A DNA stretch of 64,000 nt from Spirosoma sp. 48-14 (GTDB taxonomy: Bacteria > Bacteroidota > Bacteroidia > Cytophagales > Spirosomataceae), in assembly GCF_001898575.1 (NCBI RefSeq), contig NZ_MKUD01000022.1, forward strand, positions 115,041-179,040, read 5' to 3'. A program made the translations under genes and the position numbers. The notes under the pieces were generated by a model that did not search any database, had not been told where the DNA came from, and was given only the letters and a program-made list of their open reading frames with translations. Shown here piece after piece: positions 5,879-17,968 of the stretch; the stretch's first letter is position 1; each line of letters begins with the position of its first letter.

Positions 5879-7189
5879 ATGCGTTTGTTTCTCACATTAT
5901 TGCTGGCTGTTGGTTTAGTATCCTGCGTCGATCCTGTGGACGGAATACTGCTTGGAACGGTGGACGTGCTGGTGGTGGATGGGATCATTAATAACCTGCC
6001 AGAACCACAGGTAATCCGACTTAATCGATCAAAATCCGATCCATTTACGGGCCAGACCGGCTTTACGCCAATCACCGGGGCAACCATAGAGGTCGTAGTT
6101 GATTCGGCCGAAGCGATACCTTGCCATGAAACCACCGAGGGCAATTACCAACTCCCCAGCGATTTTAAGGGGAAAATTGGCCATGCTTATCAACTCCGTT
6201 TTTCACTGGCAGATGGAACCCGGTATGCGTCGACTCAACAGATTATGCCAGCTTATCCAGTTCCAGCGATCAATAAACTAACAGCCCGGTTCAATCCGAA
6301 AAGTTTACGAACGCCACTGGATGGTTTTTACACGGCTGGGCATGACCTGTTTGTTGAGTTTAAAGACCCCGTCGAGGCTCATAATTATTACCGATGGGAC
6401 TGGAAGATTTGGGAAAAGCAACAATGGTGTCGGACTTGTCAGCAGGGCGTTTATGCGGTTTACGGCATTCGAGACAGCTTGGTATTGTCGAATGCATCGC
6501 GGGGGAACTACTATATCTACACAGAAGATCGGTCAACCCGGTTGGAAGATTGTTATCGGGAATTAACGCCCCCCGCTTTCTCCTATCGTACGCCTTTGCC
6601 CAATTACGCCTACGATTACATGTGCCGAACCAATTGCTGGGAAATCTTTTACAGTCACGACATTACCGTGTTCGATGATGTGTATACCAACGGCGGGTTA
6701 ATTACAGGACTTAAGGCTGCGCAAATTCCGTTTTATACCTATAATCCATGTCTGGTCGAGGTTCGACAAAGCTCGCTCACGGTCGATGCTTATGGCTATT
6801 TTAAAGCGATTCAGGATCAGACCGAACGCACTGGCGGCCTGGCCGATACACCGCCATCGGTTTTGGCGGGCAATGTGCATAATGTAGCGAATCGTAAAGA
6901 GGTTGTTGTTGGCTTTTTTTCTGCATCTGTCCTAACCTCGCTGCGGTATTGGCTCGACCGGAAAGATGCCTCTGGTGTGTCGTTTGGAGGCTCTGGGCCA
7001 GCGGGTTATGGAGGGGATGTAGGGTCAGAGCTATTTTATGTGTTGAACAGGCGTCAGCCTGCCATGGAGCCTACTCCGCCAGCCATTCCACAAATGGTGA
7101 TACAGAATAGCCTGAACCGGCCCCCAACAGCCTTTTGTTTGCCGAGTGATACACGAACACCCAATAAACCCGAAGGCTGGCGGGATTAA
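5879..7189 (+). CDS. DUF4249 family lipoprotein (copy B)
   Basis: 436 residues. The lipoprotein signal MRLFLTLLLAVGLVSC has its lipobox Cys at about residue 16. It carries the family core (VDGIINNLPEPQVIRLNRSK), a Cys in IPCHET, the motifs WCRTC, EDCY and CRTNCWEI, and a Cys in PCLVEVRQ, with the end NKPEGWRD. It starts 13 bp after the TonB receptor stop and is probably translated from the same mRNA. Relative to copy A it shares long stretches such as YQLPSDFKG and GHAYQLRF, consistent with local duplication. Function is unknown beyond a likely cell-surface role next to the receptor. Confidence 0.92.
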   Translation: MRLFLTLLLAVGLVSCVDPVDGILLGTVDVLVVDGIINNLPEPQVIRLNRSKSDPFTGQTGFTPITGATIEVVVDSAEAIPCHETTEGNYQLPSDFKGKIGHAYQLRFSLADGTRYASTQQIMPAYPVPAINKLTARFNPKSLRTPLDGFYTAGHDLFVEFKDPVEAHNYYRWDWKIWEKQQWCRTCQQGVYAVYGIRDSLVLSNASRGNYYIYTEDRSTRLEDCYRELTPPAFSYRTPLPNYAYDYMCRTNCWEIFYSHDITVFDDVYTNGGLITGLKAAQIPFYTYNPCLVEVRQSSLTVDAYGYFKAIQDQTERTGGLADTPPSVLAGNVHNVANRKEVVVGFFSASVLTSLRYWLDRKDASGVSFGGSGPAGYGGDVGSELFYVLNRRQPAMEPTPPAIPQMVIQNSLNRPPTAFCLPSDTRTPNKPEGWRD

Positions 7190-7208
7190 AGCCGTCTGCA
7201 CGCAACCT

Positions 7209-8507
7209 ATGAAAGTCTTAGGTGATAATAAGTGGCTATGTGTTCGGGTGGTGGGCTGGCTGGTACTTGGCTGGCTACCAATGGCCTGTGTTGATCCAGA
7301 CGATGTACTATTGCGCGGTACGTTGGATCTTATAGTCGTAGATGGCACGCTGACAAACCTGATTGAGGAGCAACTTATTACGCTCAATCGCTCCCGCGCT
7401 GACCCACTTACAGGCCGATTTGGGGTATTGCCGATTACCAAAGCGCAGGTTGAGGTGGTAGTAGATTCGGCCCAAGTCGTAAAAGCCGAAGAAACGGAAG
7501 ACGGTACTTACCGATTGCCCAGTGATTTTCGCGGGCAAGTGGGCCATGCCTATCAACTGAGGTTTACACTCAATGAAGGTACCCGTTATGTGTCCAGTCA
7601 GCAGGTGATGCTACCAGTTTCGCCAATCGATAAAGCACGCGTACAGTTCAATCCGGTCAGTTTGCCGCCGGGCCTGTACCCGACAAATTTCCGGGCAGGG
7701 TATGATGCGTTTGTTGACACCAACGACCCGCCCGGTCAGCGTAATTATTATCGTTGGGACTGGATTTTGTACGAAAAGCAGAAATGGTGCAAAAGCTGCT
7801 ACCAAAGTATTTACATCGACACCATGCAGACCCGCTACATCCAGAATGGTGTGGTAGCTACCATGAAACAAGCCATTGAAAACTGCGTAAATCCATTAAC
7901 GGTGTTCACAGCTTTTGGCTTTCCCAATGGCGACTGGTATTCCGACTACCTGTGCCGGACACCCTGCTGGGCACGGATTCGTAATTATAACCTGAATGTA
8001 TTCGACGACCAGCTCAGTAACGGTGGTTTGTTGGTGGGCCGCAAAGTAGCCCAGGTTCCTCTATTGACCCGCCAGCCTGCGTTAATGCAACTGCGGCAGT
8101 CGTCGCTAACGGCAGAAGCCTACCGGTATTTTTATCTGTTTCAGCAGCAAACCCAGAATACGGGCGGTCTGGCCGACACGCCCCCGACGGCTTTGGTGGG
8201 GAATGTCAGAAATGTTGCGAATGCTAGGGAAGCGGTAGTCGGATTCTTTACGGCAAGCACGGTAGCTGTGAAAGAAATCTGGCTCGATAAAAAAGACGCT
8301 ACCAAACTACCACTAGGTGCCTATGACGATGCCGGAAATATTGTACAGGACGATGATGAACTATTCTACGCGCTGAAGGTTCGTTTGCCAACGCAAGGTC
8401 CCGAAGGACCACCGTTTACGCCGGGTAGTCACGGCCGTTTTATCACCGCTCCCTGTACACCCGGCCCTAACCAAACCCCGCTAAAGCCAGAAGGCTGGCG
8501 GGATTAA
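7209..8507 (+). CDS. DUF4249 family lipoprotein (copy C, two conserved cysteines missing)
   Basis: About 432 residues from the ATG at 7209, which places the lipoprotein signal (VVGWLVLGWLPMAC) correctly. The longer frame from 7146 would overlap copy B and put 21 polar residues ahead of the signal. The core and the WCKSC, ENCV and CRTPCW motifs are kept. The cysteine found in the CHET motif of copies A, B and D is Ala here (KAEETEDG), and the one in PCLVE is also Ala (PALMQLRQ). Both are lost together, which suggests they form one disulfide in the other copies. The gene sits 19 bp after copy B and 17 bp before copy D. Confidence 0.91.
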   Translation: MKVLGDNKWLCVRVVGWLVLGWLPMACVDPDDVLLRGTLDLIVVDGTLTNLIEEQLITLNRSRADPLTGRFGVLPITKAQVEVVVDSAQVVKAEETEDGTYRLPSDFRGQVGHAYQLRFTLNEGTRYVSSQQVMLPVSPIDKARVQFNPVSLPPGLYPTNFRAGYDAFVDTNDPPGQRNYYRWDWILYEKQKWCKSCYQSIYIDTMQTRYIQNGVVATMKQAIENCVNPLTVFTAFGFPNGDWYSDYLCRTPCWARIRNYNLNVFDDQLSNGGLLVGRKVAQVPLLTRQPALMQLRQSSLTAEAYRYFYLFQQQTQNTGGLADTPPTALVGNVRNVANAREAVVGFFTASTVAVKEIWLDKKDATKLPLGAYDDAGNIVQDDDELFYALKVRLPTQGPEGPPFTPGSHGRFITAPCTPGPNQTPLKPEGWRD

Positions 8508-8524
8508 TTCTCAACGTTTCGACT

Positions 8525-9832
8525 ATGTACCTACGACTTTTTTTGATCGGACTTACATTCCTGGTAGTGGCCTGCGTTGACCCTGAAGATTTGTTATTGC
8601 ATGGTACCAACGATATCATCGTGGTAGATGGTACGATTACAGATCGGGCAGAAGCACAGATTATCAAACTGAATCGCTCCCAGGCCGACCCGCTCACGGG
8701 GCGATTTGGAACCCTACCCATTACCAGGGCCACCGTACAGATAATGGTCGATTCTTCCGTTCTGATTACCTGCCATGAAACGATTGATGGCAGCTATCAA
8801 CTGCCCAGCGATTTCAAAGGGCAAACTGGGCATGCCTATCAACTACGGTTTACGCTAACCGATGGAACCAGCTATCAATCGAGCCAGCAGGTTATGCCGG
8901 CTGTAGTACCTATTCAAAAGGCGTATGCTGAGTTTAATCCGAAAAGTCTGCCCGCTAATCAGTTCGACGGTTTTACCGCTGGTCACGATCTTTCTATCGA
9001 TGTGCAGGACCCGGTTGATCAGCATAATTATTACCGCTGGGACTGGATACTCTATGAACGGCAGTACTGGTGTAAAACCTGCCAGCAGGGCGTTTATGCC
9101 GTTTATAAAGTGCTGCCCCACACCTATTTATACGAATACTATTTTGTGGCTGGAAATGAATTGTTCGAAGATTGCTTTAGTCCACCTACCTATACGACTG
9201 ACTTTGGGGCTCCGTATGTACCCAAAGGCTATTGGTATTACGATTACAATTGCCGAACAGCCTGCTGGGAGATTTTGCGCAACGTAGCGATCAATGTGTT
9301 CGATGATCAATACAGCAATGGAGGACTACTGGTGAAACGAAAAGTAGCTAGTATCCCATTTTATCAGCACGCTCCCTGCCTGGTCGATGTTCGGCAGCTA
9401 TCGCTGACGAAGGATGCTTATCGCTATTTTCAACTGCTCCAGCAACAGACGCAAAATACGGGAGGACTGGCCGATTCGCCCCCAACGGCGTTGGCTGGGA
9501 ATGTGCGAAATACAGCAAATAGCCGGGAGTCGGTGGCGGGCTATTTCACCACTTCAGCGGTGTCTTTGTATCATCAGTGGCTTGACCGAAAAGATGCAGA
9601 AGGTATCCCATTAGGGGCTATGGACCCGGAAGGACCGCACGATAATATTGGGGAGGATTTGTTTTATGCCCTGAATAGCCGTCGGCCCAACCCCGAACCA
9701 TCGCCCCCGTATCAGGGCAATCGTTTCCCTCCAAATGTTAGAATCTGGCCCAATAATGATCGCCCACCTACCGCTCCCTGTACACCCAGCGAAACAAAAA
9801 CTCCTTACAAACCCGAAGGCTGGCGGGATTAA
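8525..9832 (+). CDS. DUF4249 family lipoprotein (copy D)
   Basis: 435 residues with lipoprotein signal MYLRLFLIGLTFLVVAC. It has the core VDGTITDRAEAQIIKLNRSQ, a Cys in ITCHET, the motifs WCKTC, EDCF and CRTACWEI, a Cys in PCLVDVRQ, and the end YKPEGWRD. This is the last gene of the apparent receptor-DUF4249 operon, followed after 3 bp by a strong hairpin. It retains all cysteines seen in copies A and B. Its role is presumed to be the same as its paralogues: a surface lipoprotein working with the upstream TonB receptor. Confidence 0.92.
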   Translation: MYLRLFLIGLTFLVVACVDPEDLLLHGTNDIIVVDGTITDRAEAQIIKLNRSQADPLTGRFGTLPITRATVQIMVDSSVLITCHETIDGSYQLPSDFKGQTGHAYQLRFTLTDGTSYQSSQQVMPAVVPIQKAYAEFNPKSLPANQFDGFTAGHDLSIDVQDPVDQHNYYRWDWILYERQYWCKTCQQGVYAVYKVLPHTYLYEYYFVAGNELFEDCFSPPTYTTDFGAPYVPKGYWYYDYNCRTACWEILRNVAINVFDDQYSNGGLLVKRKVASIPFYQHAPCLVDVRQLSLTKDAYRYFQLLQQQTQNTGGLADSPPTALAGNVRNTANSRESVAGYFTTSAVSLYHQWLDRKDAEGIPLGAMDPEGPHDNIGEDLFYALNSRRPNPEPSPPYQGNRFPPNVRIWPNNDRPPTAPCTPSETKTPYKPEGWRD

Positions 9833-9835
9833 AAC

Positions 9836-9884
9836 CGACACTCCTTCCCCCTGTCCAATTGTTGATGAGGGGGAAGGAGTGTCG
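9836..9884 (+). terminator. Strong hairpin ending the DUF4249 operon
   Basis: A perfect 16-bp inverted repeat (CGACACTCCTTCCCCC at 9836-9851 and its complement at 9869-9884) with a 17-nt loop. It begins 3 bp after the stop of copy D. No T run follows on the plus strand (ATTGAAAATAAG), so it may act as an mRNA 3'-end stabiliser as much as an intrinsic terminator. Confidence 0.7.
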
Positions 9885-9902
9885 ATTGAAAATAAGTTAA
9901 GC

Positions 9903-9945
9903 TTATTTCAAAATTGGCTCCAGTGCGGCCCGGTTAGCATCGAGC
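9903..9945 (+). repeat. Left direct repeat: imperfect copy of the epimerase 3' end
   Basis: These 43 bp match 10757-10799 at 39 of 43 positions in the same orientation. On the minus strand the copy encodes LDANRAALEPILK followed by a stop, against LDANRAVLEPILK in the real epimerase. It is therefore a detached copy of the 3' end of a coding sequence, sitting on the far side of the xisH-xisI pair. A shared TAAGTTAAG lies just before both copies, although at the right copy that is the end of xisI. Confidence 0.88.
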
Positions 9946-10006
9946 TTATAGGTTAACCTAACTTTGAATGCTTAAATTGCAAAACACTAAGTTTGCAGAA
10001 TGATTT

Positions 10007-10423
10007 ATGCCCGCCAAAGATGCATATCATACAATTGTCCGCACTGCACTTGAAAAAGACCAATGGCAGATTACGCATGATCCTTTACGAGTTGTTCTGG
10101 GGCGGAAAAAAGGGTATGTGGACTTAGCTGCTGAAAAATTACTGGCCGCTCAACGTGGGACAAAAAAAATTGCAGTTGAAATTAAGAGCTTTTTAGGGGC
10201 ATCAACGCTAGACGAATTTGAGGATGCTCTCGGCCAGTTTTTGATTTATAAGGTTGCCCTGGAAGTAGATGATCCCACTCGCCAACTCTATCTTGCAGTG
10301 CCTTTCAGTGTTTATACTGATTTTTTCGACGATTCTTTCTTCTCGGGTATTCTTAAGCGGTTTATGGTGCAATTGCTTATTTTTGATGAGGAACAGCAAA
10401 CAATAGTGCAATGGATAGACTGA
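10007..10423 (+). CDS. xisH: XisH family protein (fdxN-element excision controlling factor)
   Basis: 138 residues, beginning MPAKDAYHTIVRTALEKDQW, which is characteristic of XisH. The GYVDLAAEKLL segment followed by KKIAVEIKSF shows a D...ExK arrangement of a PD-(D/E)XK-nuclease-like fold, so a nuclease-related ancestry is plausible. In heterocystous cyanobacteria XisH acts with XisI and the recombinase XisF to excise the fdxN element. Homologues elsewhere, including those without any element, have no settled function. The gene overlaps xisI by 13 bp. No XisF-type recombinase is present in this window, so an excision role here is doubtful and the pair may act alone. Confidence 0.9.
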   Translation: MPAKDAYHTIVRTALEKDQWQITHDPLRVVLGRKKGYVDLAAEKLLAAQRGTKKIAVEIKSFLGASTLDEFEDALGQFLIYKVALEVDDPTRQLYLAVPFSVYTDFFDDSFFSGILKRFMVQLLIFDEEQQTIVQWID

Positions 10424-15616: not shown

Positions 15617-15854
15617 AGTTTAGGTCAGTATAGCTGATGAAGCCAATAAAACGTGCAGAAAACAATGAAGCCCGTTCATTTCGCTGGCCCAAAAATGAAA
15701 TTATTTATCAGAATGCAAATGCAGGTGAATTAAAAACAACCTGACGGCTAAAATAAACTCAGTATCGTCCTGATAAACCTATAAAAAACACCAAAGCTGA
15801 GCAGCCTGGCAGAGTTTTTAGGCTTCCACATACTACTCAGTTTTGGTAAAATTG

Positions 15855-15986
15855 AAAAGCAAGGCAACAGGCGAAACGAGAACGTTTGGTGCTCTACCGC
15901 TGAGCTACAGATAATCCTATCTGGCCGGATTCGAACCGGCGACCGCCCGGTTATCAGTCGATGGAACTCGTTTCTACGGCACTTGC
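15855..15986 (-). ncRNA. Candidate Y RNA 3 (YrlA-like, permuted tRNA mimic)
   Basis: Minus-strand RNA with 5' end near 15986 and 3' end near 15859, followed by UUUU (15855-15858). Terminal helix GCAAG/CUUGC (15982-15986 with 15859-15863), then an internal loop with 5' motif GUGCCGUAGA (15973-15982) facing 3' motif UUCGCCUGUUGC (15864-15875), then AACGAG/CUCGUU. Inside lies a tRNA-like module in permuted order: T-arm GCCGG-UUCGAAU-CCGGC (15924-15940), then the acceptor-like stem CAGAUA-GGAU-UAUCUG (15908-15923) capped by a tetraloop, then D-arm GCUC-AGCGGUA-GAGC (15891-15905). There is no anticodon loop. This matches bacterial YrlA RNAs, which mimic tRNA and bind the Ro60 protein encoded upstream. 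Confidence 0.85.
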
Positions 15987-15993
15987 TAAAGTC

Positions 15994-16139
15994 ATGCAGG
16001 GCAACAGGCGAATACGGTGTTTAGATGCTCTAACCAACTGAGCTACACCGGGAAGTTAGGTACAATGTCCCGGAGGCCAGACTCGAACTGGCGACCCTCT
16101 CGATCGAAGCGAAGTAACCCTACTCTACGGCACCTGCAT
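15994..16139 (-). ncRNA. Candidate Y RNA 2 (YrlA-like, permuted tRNA mimic)
   Basis: Minus-strand RNA of about 146 nt, closed by a perfect 7-bp helix AUGCAGG/CCUGCAU (16133-16139 with 15994-16000). The same motifs as Y RNA 3 occupy the adjoining internal loop: GUGCCGUAGA (16124-16133) and UUCGCCUGUUGC (16001-16012). The tRNA-like module runs T-arm GCCAG-UUCGAGU-CUGGC (16076-16092), acceptor-like stem CUCCGGGA/UCCCGGUG (16068-16075 with 16046-16053) closed by a 14-nt loop, then D-arm GCUC-AGUUGGUUA-GAGC (16027-16043) with the invariant GG. Acceptor and T-stem sequences differ from Y RNA 3 but keep pairing, which supports a conserved structure. It lies 7 nt upstream of Y RNA 3, so the two may be processed from one transcript. 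Confidence 0.86.
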
Positions 16140-16146
16140 CAATGAT

Positions 16147-16297
16147 AAAAACAGGAGTATCAAGCGTAGCGAGAACGGGGCATTGTGAAGCCAGAGTCGA
16201 ACGGCAGTGGCCGACCGTTGGACCATCTCGTTTCACCGTGGGAACCGCATGGTTCTTCCCCTTATGGTGCGAAGGAGCTCACTTCTACGACATCCTG
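16147..16297 (-). ncRNA. Candidate Y RNA 1 (Ro60-proximal, divergent type)
   Basis: Minus-strand RNA starting about 36 nt after the Ro60 stop. Terminal helix CAGGA/UCCUG (16293-16297 with 16152-16156) is followed by a U5 run (16147-16151), as at an intrinsic terminator. Inward, CGUA pairs with UACG and GUGAG with CUCGC. A GAA bulge sits on the 5' strand between them, recalling the bulged helix that Ro proteins recognise in Y RNAs. Further in, GGGG/CCCC encloses a hairpin GAACC-AUGC-GGUUC and a GUGAA/UUCAC helix. That helix holds a D-arm-like GGUC-CAACGGUC-GGCC and a short T-arm-like GCCG-UUCGACUC-UGGC, in ordinary rather than permuted order. It lacks the GUGCCGUAGA/UUCGCCUGUUGC pair of the other two. 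The fold was drawn by hand. Confidence 0.65.
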
Positions 16298-16303
16298 TTT
16301 AGA

Positions 16304-16325
16304 GCCACGAGCCCAAACTCGTGGC
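16304..16325 (-). terminator. Hairpin directly after the Ro60 stop codon
   Basis: GCCACGAG-UUUGGG-CUCGUGGC, an 8-bp perfect stem beginning 7 nt after the Ro60 gene's stop on the minus strand. It is followed by UCUAAACAGG, not a U run. It could mark the 3' end of the rsr mRNA or a processing boundary before Y RNA 1. Confidence 0.5.
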
Positions 16326-16332
16326 ACATTCG

Positions 16333-17862
16333 TTACAGTGCAATCTGTTCGATGGCACTTAACGTCGTTTGCCCTTCCTCAAGAGCTTGCAATACATCGA
16401 ACACCTTGTCGGACCAACCTGCTATCAGGTAAACATCGTTTTGTTCGACCCGTAAAGGAGCGTTTCCGTAACCAGCCAGATCGAACACATAAAGTCGCGC
16501 ATTGGGGAACAAGTGCTTGTACTGTATCCATTTAGCCGATAAACTGTTTGCCTTGTTCTGTTTTGCCGTGCGGTTATCCCACAACTGGGTGTCCGTAAAC
16601 AGCATGACTTTATCGGCTTTGTACCGTTGCCGGATCAAATCGTCGATGACCAGATATCCATTGGTCGCATAACCGACTTCTCCTTCGCGACCGTAAAATT
16701 CATCGACATTCGCTAGTACCTGACCAGGGGGTAGGGCAATGGTTTTCCAGGTATCGCCAAACATTCCGCTCAGCACATTACGGCATTTCGTGTGCAGTAG
16801 CATTCCTAACAGTAGGCCGATGTCATACAACAGCACTTTACTTTTTGGCGAAACTGGTTTCTGCATTGATCCCGATACGTCGCAGGCAACCACCACACGG
16901 GTATTTGCTGCGAACCCCCGTAGGTTGGCGGTGCTGGCATAAATAGCATCTTCCAGGGCTTCGAGCAGGATGGGTACGTGCCCAAACGGTAACACTTTCA
17001 ACTCCCGATACGCAGCCAGAAAACGGAACGGTAACTGTTTCGCCTTCTGAACCGCTTTCGCGTCGGCCAGTAAGGCACAGACTTTTTCAACATGGTCTCC
17101 GCTGACATCTGCTTCGAGCATATTACGAAGGTTCCGAAGTGTGGCCATGTAACCCAACCGGCCACTATCGATTAGCTCTTCCCATTTTGCCCGTACGGCC
17201 AACTGTTTATCGGATGGACCATCGAACGATTGCTGACCTAATGCGCTCAACTCGGTTTCCCAGGTGTAGGGCGTGTTGAGTGTACCAGTCACTAACTTAT
17301 CGAAAACGGCTTGCTGGGTTTCGCCTTTTGCTTTTGGATGGACCAGAAACAGGGCATCCCGTAGCTTAACGGCCGTATCCCGGTTGTATTTGGCAAATTG
17401 GTATTCGTCAAATTTATTGAAGGCCGTCGACAACCCTTTCTGCATCTGCTTCGACAGGCGGTTGAGTTTTTTAGCTCCCGTTCGCCCGTTTGCTAACTGG
17501 TAATATGACAACAGTTCGGTAATCTCATCCGGTCGTTGCACAGTCCGCGCTACAGCTTTTCCAACCAAACCATCGCCGTGGTGTACCTTGGCTAATTCTC
17601 CCAGCAACACAACCGGAGCCGAACGGAGGTACATCTGCTCCCGAACATAGACCGCCAGCTTTGCAACAAACACTGGATCGACCTGCGCAACTAATTCCTG
17701 AATGCGTACCAATCGCTGGTCTTCACTTTCATAATGTGAGTCGTTGAGCATAGTGGTGACCACCGCCGAATACAGGCTTAGTTGTGGCGTCAACGCATAG
17801 GCCTGCCCCCCTTCATAGTTGACGGTTTTCGTTACATCGCGGTTGTGGCTGTTGAATTTCAT
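16333..17862 (-). CDS. rsr: TROVE-domain protein, bacterial Ro60 orthologue
   Basis: 509 residues. The TROVE (HEAT-like ring) domain covers roughly 15-330, from NYEGGQAYALTPQLSLYSAV through FVAKLAVYVREQMYLRSAPVVLLGELAKVH. A von Willebrand A-like domain follows with the MIDAS motif VACDVSGSMQKPVSPKS (DxSxS) and MLFTDTQLWDN. In Deinococcus and Salmonella such proteins form a ring that holds misfolded or structured RNA, bind Y RNA on the outside, and tether RNases such as PNPase. The three tRNA-mimicking RNAs directly downstream on the same strand strengthen the assignment. No rtcB/rtcA genes lie nearby, unlike in many proteobacterial rsr loci. Three GCGCAG elements lie upstream of the start. 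Confidence 0.95.
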   Translation of the reverse strand: MKFNSHNRDVTKTVNYEGGQAYALTPQLSLYSAVVTTMLNDSHYESEDQRLVRIQELVAQVDPVFVAKLAVYVREQMYLRSAPVVLLGELAKVHHGDGLVGKAVARTVQRPDEITELLSYYQLANGRTGAKKLNRLSKQMQKGLSTAFNKFDEYQFAKYNRDTAVKLRDALFLVHPKAKGETQQAVFDKLVTGTLNTPYTWETELSALGQQSFDGPSDKQLAVRAKWEELIDSGRLGYMATLRNLRNMLEADVSGDHVEKVCALLADAKAVQKAKQLPFRFLAAYRELKVLPFGHVPILLEALEDAIYASTANLRGFAANTRVVVACDVSGSMQKPVSPKSKVLLYDIGLLLGMLLHTKCRNVLSGMFGDTWKTIALPPGQVLANVDEFYGREGEVGYATNGYLVIDDLIRQRYKADKVMLFTDTQLWDNRTAKQNKANSLSAKWIQYKHLFPNARLYVFDLAGYGNAPLRVEQNDVYLIAGWSDKVFDVLQALEEGQTTLSAIEQIAL

Positions 17863-17909: not shown

Positions 17910-17968
17910 CTGCGCAGTCTTTTTGCGCAGTTCAGAAATTTTTTGAGAAAAATGAAAATTTTGCGCAG
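17910..17968 (-). promoter_or_regulatory. Three repeated (C/T)TGCGCAG sites upstream of rsr
   Basis: CTGCGCAG (17910-17917, a perfect palindrome), TTGCGCAG (17923-17930) and TTGCGCAG (17961-17968) lie 48-106 bp upstream of the rsr ATG. The first two are 13 bp apart and the third is 38 bp further. The spacing suggests a repeated protein-binding site controlling rsr and possibly its Y RNAs. No regulator is identified. Confidence 0.45.

Follow-up and report, generated by a model that had tools for sequence, protein, structure and literature searches.

In a 64,000-nucleotide (nt) stretch of the 8.7-Mb genome of Spirosoma sp. 48-14 (contig C22:115041-179040; hereafter, the window), a gene of the Ro60 family is followed on the same, minus strand by three structured RNA units, denoted A, B, and C (for coordinates of all features, see Table 1). 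As the strand is minus, the array is ordered from 16300 down to 15855, and unit A is separated from the Ro60 stop codon by 32 nt. The gene product matches the Pfam TROVE family (PF05731) with E-value 4.1e-32 and 112.4 bits against the cut-off of 23, as well as the TROVE proteins 9l5y/9kop in PDB (1.9e-19), and its closest named relatives are Spirosoma proteins with 79-80% identity. Residues D328, S330, and S332, invariant across 24 aligned proteins, constitute what we take to be the DxSxS metal site of the vWA domain.

Three RNA units downstream of Ro60

Units B and C (T/D units) contain perfect T-arms, GCCAG-TTCGAGT-CTGGC and GCCGG-TTCGAAT-CCGGC, respectively, and D-arms of the form GCTCAG..GAGC, arranged inside a closing helix in the order T-arm, capped stem, D-arm. 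There is no anticodon arm in either unit, and ARAGORN identifies no tRNA in the 64-kb window. The base sequences TGCCGTAGA and CGCCTGTTGC are common to B and C, and in unit A this module is present in a variant form, with TGTCGTAGA / CGCTTGATAC at 16284-16292 and 16157-16166. In unit A a D-arm-like hairpin precedes (by eye) a T-arm-like hairpin, the latter coming after a separate helix, which is not the order characteristic of YrlA RNAs.

Two covariance models were built from units of other genera, R1 based on an alignment of 40 T/D units, and R2, on 25 units of the class that we call GGGG. In the window, R1 finds only units B and C up to E-value 10, while R2 identifies 16148-16300 with E-value 1e-15 and the other two units with 2e-7 and 8.7e-6; hence, unit A is a real unit, but of a class distinct from B and C. 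Genome-wide, the R1 matches ranking directly below B and C are an RNA on contig 6 with 48.8 bits (7.3e-8), followed by a match with 28.9 bits (0.005). The Pfam match and the recovery of all three units by these held-out models confirm the central observation of the original prediction, made from the sequence alone, that a TROVE gene is followed by three structured segments on its strand; the other details claimed, that is, perfect T- and D-arms in permuted order without an anticodon arm in two segments and common sequences in their terminal helices, are those located above in B and C.

The stems had also been said to differ in sequence and to keep pairing, and this holds across related genomes. 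In the alignment of the 40 T/D units, 27 of 32 base pairs are changed on both sides and still paired; the fraction of paired cells is 94.9%, compared to 70.2% in shuffled alignments and 40-48% in slid ones. In selecting these units, the finder relied on the outer helix and on the pairs of the T- and D-arms. It considered neither the inner helix nor the capped stem, and these two therefore form the unbiased part of this evidence: changes on both sides are seen in seven of eight pairs of the inner helix (90.9% paired) and in all six pairs of the capped stem (93.1% paired), that is, in 13 of 14 pairs. With the nearest Ro60 relatives found in Spirosoma and covariation observed across genera, the assignment of the locus to Bacteroidota Ro60 systems with tRNA mimics of the YrlA topology stands as well.

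Common base and variable heads in related loci

For comparison, species genomes were scanned with an alignment of seven Ro60 proteins, and the best 80 of 564 relatives were kept. By their record labels, all these loci belong to Bacteroidota genera or groups, except L051 from a metagenome-assembled genome (MAG) labeled Limnohabitans, with 61% identity of its Ro60. In the 80 loci, 261 copies of the 5' motif TGYCGTA-N5-16-TNCTTCG are seen on the Ro60 strand between 60 nt before and 4.5 kb after the Ro60 end, compared to only six copies elsewhere on the Ro60 strand and two on the other one. A unit finder based on both motifs and the outer helix yields 288 units in 79 loci, with the median of three and the maximum of eight units per locus, and at least two units in 75 of 80 loci. 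In the only locus left empty, L094, the covariance model finds a unit directly after Ro60 (45.3 bits). Addition of seven further kin loci brings the set to 313 units in 86 of 87 loci. Hence, a multi-RNA array is the normal state downstream of Ro60, and not an unusual one, as had been originally supposed.

The common base of the units was characterized in the 100 motif copies (out of 261) that also have the strict 3' motif, a definition involving only sequence. The outer helix in these units has the mean length of 5.13 bp, compared to 2.08 bp with permuted partners (the largest value in 1000 permutations being 2.63), and holds a single bulged T, the mean without the bulge being 0.08 bp. The pair next to this helix is C-G in 52 cases, T-A in 20, and T-G in 15, while the remaining 13 have a C-A mismatch. 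The TNCTTCG-type motif is present in 308 of 313 units, and in 307 of them its distance from CGTA takes one of two adjacent values; the finder mostly required this motif, but never its distance from CGTA. Overall, the base module is comprised of the outer helix, the bulged U, the G-Y/R-C pair step, the CGUA / YUGUU internal loop, the inner helix, and (U)UACUUCG or its variant. A within-locus swap test is biased, as the units were chosen by helix length, and was not used as evidence.

Several isolated observations were made in these arrays. In a Prevotella-labeled MAG (L081, 2498-3192) a second array of five units is located about 3 kb upstream of Ro60; a small protein frame is seen by eye inside the Y-RNA array of one relative (L009, 3345-3755); and in a Chryseobacterium locus (L083, 7598-7673, minus strand) an Rfam Flavo-1 RNA (57.4 bits, cut-off 42) lies just after Ro60 on the opposite strand.

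The cargo, or head, held by the base differs widely between units. By simple rules, the 288 units are divided into T-then-D (110), minimal, with at most 75 nt between the motifs (63), T only (50), GGGG (43), 23S segment (5), and other (17) classes. In the set of 313 units, T-arms are present in 235 and D-arms in 125, compared to 0.9% and 0.7% in shuffled cargo, and the T-arm precedes the D-arm in 122 of 124 units having both.

The 23S class is formed by units of approximately 205 nt from four Chryseobacterium loci and L051, carrying ACGGTCCTAAGGTAGCG or its one-base variant. The 18-mer AACGGTCCTAAGGTAGCG with at most two mismatches is found downstream of Ro60 in eight of the 80 loci, and therefore three more loci contain 23S-like sequence outside the called units. 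The L072 unit is identical to 23S rRNA of the Spirosoma group at 33 of 33 bases (blastn), and its alignment with 23S rRNA of its own genome opens with 31 identical bases; the same 33-nt segment is kept exactly in L141. The matching place in E. coli records is annotated as 23S rRNA (90.9% over 33 nt, E-value 0.06), and the copied segment presumably corresponds to helices 69-71. Among the matches listed in a search that scored at most eight candidates per genome, the whole unit is present in at least 22 of 98 Chryseobacterium genomes with identity of at least 81%; other listed matches cover just the 33 nt, as true 23S rRNA does. The consensus fold of eighteen 23S-like units (16 distinct, with two identical pairs) retains one hairpin resembling helix 69 and a second, shortened one resembling helix 71, and several of its base pairs have changed on both sides. 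Two loci containing such a unit yield no match to large-subunit (LSU) rRNA when scanned with Rfam. There is no 23S-like unit in the window; the conserved 23S motif was not found in the genome of the window, and 23S rRNAs of other genomes were therefore used.

Two further candidates for copied RNAs were rejected: additional 23S sequence in the rest of the L072 head (score 18.5, the shuffled mean and maximum being 17.6 and 25.5), and a copy of the cobalamin riboswitch in the GGGG-class head (no match up to E-value 10 in the one GGGG locus scanned). Separately, 23S rRNA itself (L101) contains CTCGTAACTTCGG, similar to the 5' base motif CGTAG..UUACUUCG, which may be due to chance or to a contact of Ro60 on rRNA. 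One more conserved class of Chryseobacterium units has GTCTGTC before the 3' base and CAGTAAGGA or a similar sequence within, and no model RNA was recognized in it. Compared across the related loci, the heads suggest a widespread modular system with a common base, in which many heads mimic tRNA and a few mimic rRNA.

Operator-like repeat, WYL gene, and the RtcB locus

An inverted repeat resembling an operator lies upstream of Ro60. This 19-bp sequence has two exact copies in the genome and one more place with three mismatches; as a control, the reversed pattern yields two places at up to three mismatches. At the second exact copy, a WYL/WCX regulator gene is located on one side, and the other side holds an RNA having both a T- and a D-arm, together with the genes of a Band-7 slipin and of RtcB. 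The leader there is shorter than 600 nt and contains T/D/T arms. In an alignment of ten slipin-RtcB loci, including that of the studied genome, the T-stem-D module is present inside the leader RNA in six cases and lacking in four, as if it were a swappable insert.

In 71 of 80 loci, Ro60 is preceded by a looser form of the operator at a distance of at most 160 nt, and in 40 loci a WYL gene is located upstream and divergently. RtcB is encoded near Ro60 in 31 of 80 loci within the stretch examined, always on the Ro60 strand. The absence of rtcBA neighbors claimed for the window is thus correct locally, but does not extend to these relatives, nor to the second locus of the same genome with its identical operator. 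In three congeners, the operator (at most one mismatch) precedes a frame resembling RtcB by eye. As the identical operator occurs only at Ro60 and at the locus of WYL, tRNA-mimicking RNA, slipin, and RtcB, the data suggest a candidate WYL-controlled RNA-repair regulon, with the position of the WYL gene pointing to its product as the regulator.

A related arrangement was noted in a genome of the same order having no match to Ro60 (L135, G037:C12, 9750-10240, minus strand): downstream of an operator with one mismatch lie a tRNA-like array of another kind (GGTCAAG..CTTACTTCT) and the gene of a 746-residue protein without a Pfam family, which resembles the MXAN_6230/SCO0854 RING family (146 bits, cut-off 600).

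Among the remaining features of the window, the hairpin that follows the Ro60 stop codon and precedes unit A is a possible processing site. The terminator-like stem matches, in its place and partly in its sequence, the closing stem of an extra unit in the kin loci L002 and L004, where the extra units carry CCAAAACCGG on the 5' side; the stem is possibly a relic of a fourth unit.

Table 1. Features of the Ro60 locus in the window, followed by those in other sequence records
Feature	Positions	Strand	Details
Ro60/Rsr-like TROVE protein, 509 amino acids	16333-17862	-	Pfam TROVE, DxSxS residues
Y-RNA unit A, shared base module and GGGG-class cargo	16148-16300	-	R2 model, 72.6 bits, E 1e-15
Y-RNA unit B, T-arm, capped stem, and D-arm on the base module	15992-16140	-	R1 model, 100.7 bits, E 1.1e-22
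T-arm of unit B	16076-16092	-	
D-arm of unit B	16027-16043	-	
Y-RNA unit C, T-arm, capped stem, and D-arm on the base module	15855-15989	-	R1 model, 109.9 bits, E 6.4e-25
T-arm of unit C	15924-15940	-	
D-arm of unit C	15891-15905	-	
Operator-like TGCGCAAAAAGACTGCGCA preceding Ro60, inverted repeat CTGCGCA-N7-TGCGCAG	17911-17929	-	Exact twice in genome
Hairpin GCCACGAG..CTCGTGGC between Ro60 stop codon and unit A	16304-16325	-	Fold of 16296-16334: -16.3 kcal/mol, z -4.24
Terminator-like stem CCAAA..TTTGG and T-run	15783-15846	-	Fold of 15792-15846: -17.6 kcal/mol, z -2.69
Second locus, same genome, L134 (G000:C6:258000-272000)	5945-10322		WYL, identical operator, leader, slipin, RtcB
Further Chryseobacterium unit class	L086 9533, L083 9011, L092 7962, L085 10316, L088 9217, L072 9201		

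Comparison with known systems and interpretation

The closest known counterpart is YrlA (RF02553) from the Salmonella rsr-yrlBA-rtcBA locus. The YrlA stem is reported to bind Rsr, the tRNA-like part, to bind PNPase, and the RNA, to be modified by DusA and TruB (PMC8394870); in Salmonella, the rtcBA operon with Rsr and Y RNAs is reported to be controlled by RtcR (PMC7790460). Similarly to YrlA, the units described here are located beside an ortholog of Ro60, have a long closing stem, and, in B and C (not A), the order T-arm, capped stem, D-arm; the link to RtcB is likewise shared with the Salmonella operon as reported there. In contrast to YrlA, they have their own base sequence TGYCGTAG / YTGTTRC with a bulged U, there are up to eight RNAs per locus, and the heads are of several types; half of the loci have a divergent WYL gene, whereas RtcR is the regulator reported for Salmonella. 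By analogy with the Rsr-Y RNA-PNPase complex of Deinococcus radiodurans (RYPER), the base might be expected to sit on the Ro60 ring, with the head acting as a tether or gate, but neither arrays nor rRNA-like heads are mentioned for RYPER in the available part of the source. As in transfer-messenger RNA (tmRNA) and other tRNA mimics, the T-arm imitates tRNA; unlike in tmRNA, no tag frame was seen, though no search was aimed at one, and the Rfam tmRNA model scores 12.1 and 26.4 bits in the loci of two relatives, below the cut-off of 47. Finally, an RNA copying a part of rRNA resembles rRNA mimicry in the regulation of gene expression, with the difference that the Chryseobacterium unit copying the 23S segment is linked to Ro60 and is not an mRNA leader.

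We consider it probable that these loci encode Ro60 and Y RNAs with a common dock and variable heads, under WYL control together with an RtcB operon. Rather unlikely is the possibility that the RNAs are decoys or substrates, that is, copies of parts of tRNA (elsewhere, of 23S rRNA) titrating modification enzymes or anticodon nucleases upon RNA damage, with Ro60 as a mere carrier. It agrees with the fact that the cargo copies the parts recognized by modifying enzymes and that the 23S-like head keeps its 33-nt segment exactly in L072 and L141, as well as with the reported modification of YrlA by DusA and TruB (PMC8394870) and the nuclease-inhibitor role suggested for it (PMC7790460). At the same time, a free decoy would need no conserved base module, and the 63 of 288 units having at most 75 nt between the motifs are too short for a full T-stem-D head.

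True T- and D-arms might also be left by tRNA pseudogenes or tRNA-derived debris accumulated beside Ro60, but we assign almost no probability to such an origin, as there is neither an anticodon arm nor an ARAGORN match, the T-arm leads in 122 of the 124 units having both arms, and 27 of 32 pairs show compensatory changes across genera. It is also very improbable that the structures act only in cis, as elements of the 3' untranslated region stabilizing or terminating the Ro60 mRNA: the array does lie immediately beside the Ro60 stop codon, and 145 of 313 units have a T-rich stretch directly behind the outer helix, compared to 220 of 1565 background windows, but a locus contains several units with different heads, and a related unit is found in trans, upstream of slipin-RtcB.

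A number of observations weigh against the preferred reading, of Ro60 with dockable Y RNAs under WYL control. The system resembles the Rsr-Y RNA systems of Salmonella and Deinococcus, yet it misses the cut-offs of both Rfam YrlA and NCBIfam Rsr. The Ro60 match to the Rsr equivalog NF041674 (3.1e-10, 39.1 bits) is far below the cut-off of 900. The Rfam YrlA search, proposed as a check in the original prediction, does match units C (43 bits, E-value 3.1e-7) and B (36 bits, 3.3e-5), but both are below the gathering cut-off of 69, and unit A has no match; at E-value up to 1, this model also weakly matches 13 of 14 control genomes, and the base, conserved among the units, aligns poorly to it. The proposed folding check was successful only in its comparative part, with covariation across genera: folds of the three single sequences do not differ significantly from shuffles (z -0.72, -1.46, -0.35), and hence chance is excluded by comparison only. 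A part of the base-motif conservation arises from the construction of the finder.

The system is also dispensable within the genus, as out of 25 genomes only six have a full Ro60, while two have fragments and 17, three of which are only 80-84% complete, no match. One fragment locus (L010) is adjoined by two shortened units (50.4 and 29.5 bits with R1), the other (L011), only by a terminator-like stem with a part of the motif, which is missed by R1. The looser operator is missing in nine of 80 loci and present at 78 other places in 1.02 Mb, and no WYL gene is found in 40 of 80 loci within the stretch around Ro60. Conservation, covariation, cargo diversity, and the shared operator sequence are observed directly, while the PNPase tether, gating, and WYL control would be carried over from other systems or from gene position.

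If Ro60 indeed serves as a dock for these RNAs, the locus would make a ring protein and a set of Y RNAs competing for it. By analogy with Rsr and its Y RNAs, the common base would dock on Ro60, and the variable head, a tRNA elbow in units B and C, would be the effector, so that different heads might produce alternative Ro60 particles. Ro60 and the array are probably transcribed together from a promoter which, given the operator and gene position, would be controlled by WYL. The same regulator would control the second operon of the tRNA-mimicking RNA, slipin, and RtcB, and damaged RNA would then be met by both repair and Ro60-guided decay. Going further, we tentatively propose, as possible rather than probable, that Ro60 of Bacteroidota is a socket which accepts, through one conserved docking base, an interchangeable set of RNA imitations (the tRNA elbow, the 23S segment, other heads, or almost nothing), deployed by WYL together with RtcB and slipin upon RNA damage, and that the copies tell Ro60 and its partners which class of damaged RNA to hold, repair, or destroy.

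In the openly licensed literature, a scope that misses the main papers on bacterial Y RNAs, we find no description of such systems in Bacteroidota, and we regard the arrays and the 23S-like head as new only tentatively. The wiring of WYL, Ro60, Y RNAs, RtcB, and slipin suggested here would differ from that of the reported RtcR operon. Bacterial Y RNAs may serve Ro60 as a gate, a tether, or a decoy, and a constant base combined with heads ranging from almost nothing to tRNA to 23S rRNA constitutes a natural experiment on their role.

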